The notes beneath the pieces were generated by a model. It did not search any database. It had not been told where the DNA came from and saw only the letters and a list, made by a program, of their open reading frames with translations. The translations under genes were made by a program, and so were the position numbers. This document shows positions 37,331 through 41,226 of a stretch of DNA of 64,000 nt, piece after piece (the first letter of the stretch is position 1; each line of letters opens with the position of its first letter). Origin of the DNA: Burkholderiales bacterium (GTDB lineage: Bacteria; Pseudomonadota; Gammaproteobacteria; Burkholderiales; UBA11063); the NCBI GenBank assembly GCA_028693355.1, contig JAQUVM010000001.1, positions 1 to 64,000 on the forward strand, read 5' to 3'.

Positions 37331-38301
37331 TTATATATTATTAATAATATTTTTTGCTAATGCATATAATAGAGATATTGATTGATCTGCGAACATAAAT
37401 AATTTTACTTGTATTTTTTTGTTTATTTGCCACCCTCTAAGCCAAGCTCTAAAATGGATACTATAATTATGACCTTTTTTTACTAATTCTTTAGTTTTAA
37501 ATTTGCTTATATAACTTATATATGAGGCTAAACTATATTCTGTTAGTTTATTTTTTGTAAAATTAAACCCTAAAAAATCAAAGCCTGCGATTAGTTTACC
37601 AGTCTTGGTTTTACCACTGTGAGTAACTAATTTTAGTTTATTCAGGATTATATACATTTTGCGAATTAAATCTTTTAACTTTCTTCAGCTATTTGTAAAA
37701 AATACATAATCATCCATAAATCTAATGTAGTTAGTAGTCACCATAAGCTTATCAATTGGCAATAAAAAAACACCAGCTAAAAGTGGTGATAGTGGGCTAC
37801 CAAGAGGAATACCGAGTCGTATAATATTGACATATCCATCTAGGCTTTCTGTTCTACGAATTGTTTGATAAATTAAGCTAAGTAATGCTTTATCGTCTAT
37901 TAAATTAGCTAGCATATTACATAATATATCATGATTGATGCTACTATAAAAACTAGCAATATCTGTTTTAAAAAAGAAGGTATTATTTTGTACAAATTTA
38001 CGAGAAGAAGTGATGGCGGCTTGAATGCCGCCATTACCAGATAAATGCGTACATTGTTTAGATAGTTTTGGCTTTAAATATTCGGTTAACACTAGAGAAA
38101 TAGCTTTTATTACTATCACATCTTCGGCATTCCAAACAGCTCTTGAACCATCATCACAATTAGTACGGTAACGTAACATTGGAGAGAAGCGATAGCTTCC
38201 ATCCAATGTTTCCGAATTAGAGGCTTTATTGAATCCCAGCGCTCACGGAGTAACCAGATATCACTACTATAGCTAACTTCAGATTGAACTGTACAATGCA
38301 A
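37331..38301 (-). pseudogene. Broken reverse transcriptase
   Basis: Reverse-transcriptase motifs are clear: GSYRFSPMLRY, FFFKTDIASFYSSINHD (motif A), IPLGSPLSPLLAGVF and the catalytic RFMDDYVFF. After FFTNS an in-frame TGA (37685-37687) stops the frame, which then continues RKLKDLIRKMYIILNKLKL and AGFDFLGFNF to 37331. The TGA lies where relatives have Trp, so it is probably a TGG to TGA change. The N-terminus is also out of frame: SSDIWLLRERWDSIKPLI is read in another frame up to about 38220. No maturase X or endonuclease domain follows, so it is not a group II intron enzyme. Motif 4 ends in SP, not the SQ of canonical DGR enzymes. It lies downstream of the DUF1554 lipoprotein gene in the same direction. 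Confidence 0.85.
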
Positions 38302-38354
38302 TGAGCGACAACACCTATAAATAATAGGTTAGGAGCGAGTTAAGTAGTACAGTT
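38287..38354. repeat. Nested inverted repeat upstream of the reverse transcriptase
   Basis: The outer arms AACTGTAC (38287-38294) and GTACAGTT (38347-38354) are perfect complements. An inner stem ACCTAT (38313-38318) pairs with ATAGGT (38324-38329). GAGCGA occurs on both sides between them. Confidence 0.6.
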
Positions 38355-38670
38355 TAAAAATGAGTTGAGCTATATCGGGGAAGTTTTCTCGTGATGTGCA
38401 ACACCATAAAAAAGCTTTCTCTAATATTTCGTTACTAGCTACTTGAGTTAAGAGCACTGAACTTTTCAATTTATATTATGCTCCAATGAATTAGACTAGT
38501 TGAGATTAAACGCATCTAAAATAGTACAAAGTACAAATTTTATTTTGATGCGTCTAACCAGATACGATTCAAATTCTATTGACAAATTAACTCTTGCTAA
38601 CTAATACTATATACTATTAGTTAAGTTGAAATTGCAAATTTTTGGTTTGCTCGTATATTCATCAATTTAA
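38302..38670. other. Structured intergenic region between the DUF1554 gene and the reverse transcriptase
   Basis: No ORF of note. I compared it by eye with the 3' end of the DUF1554 gene and found no obvious template repeat. It contains two sizeable inverted repeats (38287-38354 and 38506-38557), each with GTAC near the arms or loop. It is also where a retroelement RNA would be expected. Confidence 0.45.
38506..38557. repeat. Inverted repeat with a GTAC-rich loop
   Basis: TTAAACGCATCTAAAAT (38506-38522) pairs with ATTTTGATGCGTCTAA (38542-38557), with two mismatches. The 19-bp loop contains GTACAAAGTAC, which resembles the core of the dispersed intergenic repeat family. Confidence 0.6.
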
Positions 38671-40044
38671 TTATTGAGATACGCATACCAATCTTAAGGC
38701 AGTAAGAACAGGGGTGTCCTGACGGTCGCACGTTGATAAGTCAGCCATGATTGCGTTTTGGCCTAACACCACGGCTCCGGCCGCCACGGCAATGCCCACT
38801 GAGGTCATATTAAATGTTCCCGCGTCGCCCCAATTATTGCAATCCCCGAAACTAGCGTTATCCCAATTACCATCTAAACCAGTCCAGTACCCTAGTGTAT
38901 TTCCATACGCACTCCAGTTATATCCGTTTCCATAACCCCAAACATTGCTTAAGGGGAATGCAAAAGTAGCATCTGGTTTAGCGGTGCCTATCGTGAGGTT
39001 ACTAATAATATCAATGTAGGTCGTATCTGGGTCGAAGACCCAATCAATCGGTGAAGGTTTTGCGGAGCGGCTTGTACCGGCTATCATTGCTTTCCATGTT
39101 AGCGATCTTGCTAAATCGTTAGGTACCCACCCTGCGCTTTCAGCATCATGTTGACATATTGCATCTGCCTTAGCTATACCATTAGCGCCAGTAGGTTGCC
39201 AAACGGAATTAGCTACAACCATCGCACCATTTGGTGATGATTGTGACACGAAGACCCATTTATTAGCTGGCGGAGGTGCTGGCTGTGGGTTGACGGTAAT
39301 AGCTTTGTTTGCACTTGTATACCCATTTGCACTTGCTACTAGTGTTGTATTACCAGATTCATTTCCAGCAGTAACAGTAACATTGCATGTATTTGAAGCA
39401 GTGCTAAGATTACATGTTGATGCTGATAATGTTATTTTGCTATTATCTGCTACTACTGTTACAGGTAAACTATTTACCCCTGTACTATTACTAAGGGTAA
39501 TTGTTGCTTGTTCTGTGCTTTCAACAGTTAACTGGTTTTCTACAGATATAGACAATGTACCTGCTCTAACTTCTGGAATACTATTACTTGTTGTAACTTG
39601 CATAGTGCCCGGTAGAGATACTAGTGTACTTCCACTTATGGAGTATGCTACAGAATAAGTATATGAGCTCTCAGGTGCATTAGAACCATTAATAACTACA
39701 GCACATGAAGGAGTAGATGCAGTAATAATACATGGAGTAGGATTAAATGATGCTTGTGGAGCAGGTGGTGCAGGATTAGCAAAAGTTAATGTAATAGGTG
39801 ATTCTGAAGTGCTCATACCTGGAATTGCAATTGAACCCACAGGTGCATCTGATCTTGGATTAACTGAGAAATTTCCAGCGCTTAACTGAACTGCATGACC
39901 GTTAATAGTACCGATAGTGTCAGTAGTATTATTTCCGCCATTACTGCTACCACCGCTACATGCGCTAATTGCTAGAGGAACTACAACTAAAGCGCTGGTA
40001 ATGAGTGCGCCATTAGATATAAGTTTTGAGAATTTTTGATGCAT
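38671..40044 (-). CDS. Chimeric lipoprotein: shared N-terminal modules plus DUF1554 domain
   Basis: A lipoprotein signal (VPLAISAC) leads into two modules shared with the lipoproteins at 20504 and 21954: about residues 40-165, and an Ig-like module at about 165-260 (GTLSISVENQL ... STCNLSTASNTCNVTV ... ANGYTSANKAITV). From about residue 268 comes a DUF1554-like domain: FVSQSSPNGAMV, GIAKADAICQHDAESAGW, WKAMIAGTSRSA, GYWTGLDGNWDNASFGDCNN and a final LRLVCVSQ. DUF1554 is best known in Leptospira lipoproteins. The DNA for this domain (about 38690-39240) is visibly richer in G+C than the rest of the gene, which suggests separate acquisition. A broken reverse transcriptase lies downstream. Confidence 0.82.
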   Translation of the reverse strand: MHQKFSKLISNGALITSALVVVPLAISACSGGSSNGGNNTTDTIGTINGHAVQLSAGNFSVNPRSDAPVGSIAIPGMSTSESPITLTFANPAPPAPQASFNPTPCIITASTPSCAVVINGSNAPESSYTYSVAYSISGSTLVSLPGTMQVTTSNSIPEVRAGTLSISVENQLTVESTEQATITLSNSTGVNSLPVTVVADNSKITLSASTCNLSTASNTCNVTVTAGNESGNTTLVASANGYTSANKAITVNPQPAPPPANKWVFVSQSSPNGAMVVANSVWQPTGANGIAKADAICQHDAESAGWVPNDLARSLTWKAMIAGTSRSAKPSPIDWVFDPDTTYIDIISNLTIGTAKPDATFAFPLSNVWGYGNGYNWSAYGNTLGYWTGLDGNWDNASFGDCNNWGDAGTFNMTSVGIAVAAGAVVLGQNAIMADLSTCDRQDTPVLTALRLVCVSQ

Positions 40045-40266
40045 AAATACAGTCCTATTTAAAAAATTTACTTATGAAATAATCTAGGCGTAAATGTATC
40101 ATATAAAAAATAAGCACCATGTCTGCTTTTAGCCTACAAAGCGTGTTTAATTCTTATAAATAAAGGATTTTATTTTTAAAAACTAGATATCTGTGTTGTA
40201 TAAATGCTAATTTGGGATATTTTTATTTAATATTTATATAAATATTTTAAAAAATTCTTTAACTAT

Positions 40267-41226
40267 TTAATTGAGAACTATACTTTTTATAGTATTAATA
40301 ACATCACTAACAAGCACTTCCATTCCTTTACCTCCAAGATTTTTAGCTATATCAGATTCTAATATACCTACATACCCTGGATCACTCGCCAAATATATAG
40401 CTATAGTTGGTGTATGTGTTAAATTAGCAAAATGAGTAAATCCTGTATCTACACCTATTACTACATCAGATTTAACTATTAGATCCGCTAGTTTAGTAAA
40501 AGATAACTTTTCAATAAGAGTAATTCGTTCGCTATTTAAATTACTAATTAAACTTATAGCAAATTCATATTCAGCTTGATTACTATAAGTTATAACTATT
40601 TGTTTATTGCTATTATTAATCACCCAATTAGACAATTCAGTCCAATTTTCTAAAGACCATTTTTTATTTTCTTTAGACGTACCATGTAAAAATAATATAT
40701 AACCATTTACAAAATTTATTCCACAATCTTCAGATTTATATTGAAAATCAATTTTACGTAAATCATGCTTTAGATTAAATATTTTGGCTATAAGACCACG
40801 TAATCTTGGTACTGCAATATTATTTTGATTTACATTATAAGTAAAATCATAAAATAAACTAGCTATAGGCTCACGAGCCGACTTTCTATCCAATCCGAAC
40901 ACATAACCATCAAAAAGGTATTTGGATAGCATAGCGGACTTAATAAGACCCTGTGTATCGATTATATAGTCGTATTTGGTATTAGATAATGTCTTTTTAA
41001 AATTAGCTAGTTTATTAAACCAAGTAAATTTATTTTTTTTCCATTTTCTAAGTGGAATAGGAATTACATTATCAATAAGTGGAGATAAATTAGCAACTCC
41101 AGTAAAATTTTCATCAACTAACCAATCAATAGTTACATTGGGATTGGTTTTTTTAATATCAGGTAATACAGTGAATGTGTGAAAAATATCACCAATTGAC
41201 GACAATCTTATTATTAATATACGCAC
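40267..41226 (-). CDS. waaC: LPS heptosyltransferase I
   Basis: WaaC transfers the first heptose to KDO2-lipid A from ADP-heptose. The GT9-family N-terminus ILIIRLSSIGDIFHTFTVLP is characteristic. YDYIIDTQGLIKSA, FLHGTSKENKKWSLENW (nucleotide-sugar binding) and VIGVDTGFTHFANLTHTPTI are all present. At 319 residues it has the usual length. Its start lies at the left edge of the predicted oriC and it is transcribed away from it. With gmhB and waaA it completes a core-LPS set scattered over the window. Confidence 0.93.
   Translation of the reverse strand: MRILIIRLSSIGDIFHTFTVLPDIKKTNPNVTIDWLVDENFTGVANLSPLIDNVIPIPLRKWKKNKFTWFNKLANFKKTLSNTKYDYIIDTQGLIKSAMLSKYLFDGYVFGLDRKSAREPIASLFYDFTYNVNQNNIAVPRLRGLIAKIFNLKHDLRKIDFQYKSEDCGINFVNGYILFLHGTSKENKKWSLENWTELSNWVINNSNKQIVITYSNQAEYEFAISLISNLNSERITLIEKLSFTKLADLIVKSDVVIGVDTGFTHFANLTHTPTIAIYLASDPGYVGILESDIAKNLGGKGMEVLVSDVINTIKSIVLN

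Follow-up and report, generated by a model that had tools for sequence, protein, structure and literature searches.

The window analysed here, a 64,000-nucleotide stretch of a Burkholderiales bacterium genome, carries what we read, at a probability of roughly 60%, as a dead copy of a UG4 reverse transcriptase (RT) locus that diversified the gene for an adjacent exported protein. The reading draws on a target gene whose variable core ends abruptly within nearly identical surroundings, on the recurrence of a conserved RT beside a divergent exported protein in other UG4 groups, and on substitutions between near-identical plasmids that fall in the gene next to the RT.

The RT pseudogene occupies 37331..38469 on the reverse strand, downstream of its target and on the same strand, with a TTG start at about 38469 that we inferred from a sister copy which the genome carries on contig C155. 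Compared with that copy it has three lesions: an inserted dispersed repeat of 108-112 bp occupies 38265-38376, 4 bp are missing near 38212, and a TGA in frame at 37685..37687 (reverse strand) interrupts the coding sequence. It is plainly dead. The inserted repeat (about 110 bp, absent from the C155 copy) is MITE-like and recurs in some 15 further copies elsewhere in the genome; its ends form imperfect terminal inverted repeats, TATAGCT...AGCTATA. Because the RT begins at about 38469, the 369-bp gap between target and RT in which the earlier note found no template is mostly the RT 5' end, and the intergenic distance is really about 200 bp; that no template repeat lies there held up, as did the note's description of a broken RT downstream of, and in the same direction as, a DUF1554 lipoprotein.

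PADLOC assigns the enzyme to RT_UG4 at 6.9e-63, with the next best profile at 7.7e-35, and a tree of 54 rows places it within the UG4 clade, which is split from other RTs at 99% support. Judged by profile and tree, the window RT thus belongs to the UG4 class and not to the enzymes of diversity-generating retroelements (DGRs), whose SQ motif it lacks: motif 4 reads LGSPLSP, as the earlier note had claimed. That note had named placement in an unrelated clade that never has targets as the outcome that would speak against a diversity system; the clade is indeed UG4 and not that of the DGRs, but UG4 enzymes do have targets. Domain search recovers RVT_1 alone in the first piece of the RT and no significant domain in the second, no maturase/X or endonuclease domain is present in the pieces, and an Rfam search for RNA families, intron RNA included, gave no match; the solved structures closest by sequence are those of group II intron RTs and a group II-like 4 RT. 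UG4 relatives were absent from viral contigs, and the phage records searched returned weak RT matches only. No function is known for the UG4 class, which has fimbrial genes in 66% of its neighbourhoods (myRT, PMC8934634). The neighbour in the window is a DUF1554 lipoprotein and not a fimbrial gene, a fimbrial neighbour being frequent for UG4, not defining.

The target gene (38671..40044, reverse strand) encodes a protein of 457 amino acids with a lipoprotein-type start (ISACSGG) and a C-terminal DUF1554 domain, which a profile search recovers at 53.9 bits (E 2.5e-14) and which hmmscan with the complete protein missed, listing no domain. Modelled with AlphaFold2 (pLDDT 85, pTM 0.86), the domain is predicted to adopt the endostatin fold, with VIA-align Z scores of 14-15 over 154-158 residues. 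Endostatin is a member of the C-type-lectin-like superfamily in structural classifications. The C-type-lectin-like fold is the typical fold of DGR targets (PMC5006420, PMC6328139). A likeness of the domain to Mtd was also considered and set aside, a Foldseek E of 7.4 being no evidence. DUF1554 is expanded in this genome, with 12 matches (contigs C123, C54, C157, C155, C92, C97, C96 and C142 among their locations) and one protein that carries the domain in tandem; other species of the genus likewise have up to 12 matches.

Alignment with the C155 copy shows a sharply delimited variable core, dividing the gene into a constant part (amino acids 1-306, 39127..40044, reverse strand, GC3 0.18) and the core itself (amino acids 307-457, 38674..39126, reverse strand, GC3 0.43). 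The comparable 5' stretch, amino acids 183-306, is 97.6% identical with a dS of 0.034, and the flanks of the two loci are about 98% identical; from about amino acid 306 to the stop codon, the last 450 bp or so, identity falls to 56% in nucleotides and 46% in amino acids (dS 1.42, dN 0.54), and it returns to about 95% or more right past the stop codon. The cores of the window and C155 copies have GC3 values of 0.43 and 0.47, whereas the constant parts reach 0.18-0.22, a DUF1554 gene without an RT 0.17-0.21 and the remaining window genes that were tested 0.11-0.21; genome-wide, third-codon GC is about 0.15. The differences between the cores affect every codon position and every pair of bases, 80 of 198 involving no A, and therefore do not look like DGR-type adenine mutagenesis from one shared template.

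Divergence over whole domains, as in other UG4 groups, and a core that is GC-richer than its surroundings also suit the main rival explanation, in which ordinary recombination and selection lead surface genes to swap alleles between strains with breakpoints in conserved flanks, the RT rides along as a passenger or serves as a conserved anchor, and the window core is a horizontal allele from a GC-richer donor. We regard this as rather unlikely. Against it, a search of 399 genomes of the order and 331 of the class found protein relatives of the core only inside its own genome, and plasmids held none; a donor, if any, is therefore unsampled. We instead suggest that the window core diverged by the UG4 route before its RT died, so that this dead locus would be a relic of that mechanism.

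Four other relatives of the window locus, all more decayed, lie in the same genome, on contigs C155, C92, C142 and C126; the one on C155 is the best preserved, and every RT copy found in the genome is broken. For 3 of the 12 DUF1554 genes (window, C155 and C92), a UG4 remnant follows on the same strand at a distance of a few hundred bp, and this pairing of RT and DUF1554 exceeds chance expectation. Directly past the target stop codon is an inverted-repeat element beginning with CAAACCAAAAATTTG (38582..38650, reverse strand), recognised by recurrence of this 15-mer, which occurs five times in the genome: four times right past DUF1554 reading frames (window, C155, C92 and C142) and once, on C126, at a decayed UG4 remnant without a target. 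The outer arms of the repeat that CAAACCAAAAATTTG opens, CAAACCAAAA and TTTTGGTTTG, are perfect only in C142, near-perfect in C126 and partly lost in the window copy; the hairpin consensus has slight covariation support, and the 15-mer with its flank was absent from viral contigs. Parts of a heptosyltransferase-like gene with its 3' flank (40202..41226, reverse strand) recur in front of the C126 and C142 copies, and the locus was therefore duplicated segmentally and eroded later. In C126 and C142 (loci L046 and L013) the duplicated segment appears internally deleted afterwards. Another genome of the genus, G019, has on its contig C33 (L039/L018) a second UG4 pseudogene that stands apart; it has no DUF1554 gene beside it and adjoins an asparagine-synthetase-like gene.

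Genome scans and plasmid searches yielded about 50 UG4 loci for comparison; the genome scan used a smaller UG4 alignment, a nine-protein UG4 alignment being too divergent. By a crude predictor applied to mechanically called reading frames, a signal-peptide-like start marks the gene bordering the RT 3' end at 31 of 48 loci, compared with 76 of 222 other genes (Fisher p 1.5e-4). Among the neighbours are PEP-CTERM, fimbrial and Ig-domain proteins, Lcl_C proteins, of which one has collagen repeats, plasmid-borne inverse autotransporters in Salmonella and, on plasmids of Escherichia, Salmonella, Serratia and Burkholderia, the last gene of fimbrial operons. Orientation tracks the RT clade, being convergent in the PEP-CTERM and autotransporter clades and same-strand in the fimbrial clades, and the position of the target likewise varies by clade (convergent, downstream or upstream of the RT), the window group having it upstream. 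The GC3 shift is weak at other UG4 loci, with the target closer to 0.5 in 19 of 31 (p 0.043). DsbA-family genes recur in UG4-bearing fimbrial operons (L115, L198, L201, L207 and L251), where they perhaps serve cysteine-rich variable adhesins. At L129, L130 and L134 (Cedecea and Klebsiella) the frames of the RT and the fimbrial tip protein are continuous, giving reading frames of about 700 amino acids that are possible RT-adhesin fusions. Our literature search found no paper linking UG4 to variability of its neighbour, to DUF1554 or to PEP-CTERM.

Such neighbourhoods might also arise if UG4 were a defence RT that gathers near surface genes, themselves phage receptors; PADLOC files UG4 under DRT, which is a label only, and UG4 does occur near other plasmid and island cargo. 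This alternative appears very unlikely, for the immediate neighbour is exported and comes from several unrelated families, and it is in this neighbour that substitutions cluster. Some observations suit recombination with a passenger RT better: in E. coli, L117 shares the RT alone with L115 and has an unrelated context, which indicates that a UG4 RT is able to sit by itself, and Alteromonadales UG4 units (L142, L146 and L125) end, on our reading, at tRNA-Thr-like remnants, which suggests island-like mobility of RT and target together.

Comparison of related loci shows that a conserved RT and flanks with a divergent target recur in other UG4 groups. In Salmonella (L205 and L206) the RT is 95% identical in DNA, and the autotransporter declines from 71-98 identical residues per 100 in its N-terminal part to about 16-24 beside the RT, so that amino-acid identity drops from 98% at its highest to under 20%. 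The E. albertii loci L198 and L201 have an RT that is about 98% identical in amino acids, FedE at 94% and the usher at 86%, with the gene after the RT at about 40% in its N-terminal half and about 75% in its C-terminal part. Among four Alteromonadales the RT retains 75-86% amino-acid identity and the target body about 30%, the last 25 or so residues of the target (PEP-CTERM, adjacent to the RT) being conserved; between Cedecea and Klebsiella, 79% DNA identity over operon and RT breaks over the adhesin and then resumes. The bodies of the PEP-CTERM targets cannot be aligned, a pattern closer to replacement than to point mutation and one that counts against a UG4-driven reading. That other exported subunits of the same operons are conserved tells against ordinary recombination and selection.

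The shortest time scale is given by near-identical plasmids, whose alignments, all of UG4-bearing loci, show substitutions that cluster in the target. The E. albertii plasmids NZ_CP043259 and NZ_CP030785 are identical over 14.8 kb save small indels and 12 substitutions, and the substitutions are confined to a 198-bp stretch of the exported gene that immediately follows the RT, an arrangement with a chance probability of about 2e-16 were substitutions even. The several changes could have been brought at once by one conversion tract, and to that extent this cluster is compatible with recombination. Six E. coli goat plasmids are harder to accommodate: their only three substituted sites all lie within 74 bp of the gene after the RT and define four haplotypes, and one site has T, A and G (codons ATT, AAT and AGT), three alleles that are hard to obtain via recombination among otherwise identical plasmids and that point to recurrent mutation. 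A, by our count, is involved at 10 of the 15 variable plasmid sites, which is not significant. Only 1 of 6 substitutions between L201 and L202 is in the target, and three further plasmid pairs have no differences anywhere. Tip adhesins, moreover, vary through ordinary selection and recombination too, which counts against a UG4-driven reading.

We found no template from which such changes might be copied. The window locus has no internal template-like repeat, and its draft genome has no second copy of the core, so that the near-copy of the variable region that the earlier note proposed to look for did not appear. Self-comparison of the roughly 50 UG4 loci by BLAST gave no consistent template/variable pair; the complete E. 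coli STEC719 genome has no second copy of the goat-plasmid target gene, nor do E. albertii plasmids of the E. albertii target gene, and a separate template repeat is therefore unlikely. No template was seen in the conserved non-coding flank of the Alteromonadales units, checked as a possible ncRNA. The Avd profile PF05635 had no match in the genome of the window, yet control genomes were equally silent. A canonical DGR that decayed and lost its template repeat and Avd would account for the target-then-RT order, the lectin fold and the inverted repeat past the variable region; it is nonetheless extremely improbable and disfavoured by the phylogeny, as the enzyme is a UG4 RT with LGSPLSP in place of the SQ motif, intact UG4 loci also have no template repeat, and the divergence is not restricted to adenine. 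The earlier note's decayed diversity system accordingly survives in a different form, as a decayed system probably tied to diversification of a lectin-fold surface protein; its identification with a DGR does not, given the UG4 profile and clade, the absence of a template/variable repeat pair and divergence that extends beyond adenines.

Under the reading we prefer, a UG4 RT would make error-prone cDNA of the adjacent surface-protein gene, and because a separate template repeat is absent, the source would most likely be the target gene's own transcript. The cDNA would then replace the resident segment, with substitutions gathering in the ligand-binding part and the flanks and RT left untouched; in the window group, priming or recognition could take place at the inverted repeat that follows the target stop codon. 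We infer both that the RT causes the changes and that it is self-templating with priming by the hairpin. More broadly, we see an even chance that UG4 RTs are a second bacterial hypermutation family, free of template repeats, which uses the transcript of an adjacent surface-protein gene to rewrite that gene and occurs both in environmental bacteria and on conjugative plasmids of Escherichia, Salmonella and Serratia. If true, an uncharacterised class of RTs would gain a function, reverse transcription would have come to serve programmed protein diversification outside the DGRs and without a dedicated template, and the variation of a single exported protein at each locus beside an otherwise constant operon would be explained.

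Among known systems, group II intron RTs and the group II-like 4 RT are the closest solved relatives by sequence, but the window RT has no visible intron-type domain and an exported-protein neighbour is no intron feature. The UG4 RTs (PMC8934634) include the window enzyme by profile and tree and have relatives in fimbrial operons; the targets found here extend that range to DUF1554, Lcl_C, PEP-CTERM and inverse autotransporter proteins. With DGRs of the Bordetella BPP-1 and Legionella LdtA types, the window system shares an RT that adjoins a displayed lectin-fold protein, variability limited to part of the target and, in the window group, a hairpin-like element past the variable part. Unlike them, its RT sits in another clade and is without the SQ motif and a template repeat, the Avd search gave no match (nor did it in the control genomes), and its variability does not look limited to the adenine positions of a short repeat. 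Our verdict is that the window system would have worked like a DGR and is not a member of the DGRs.
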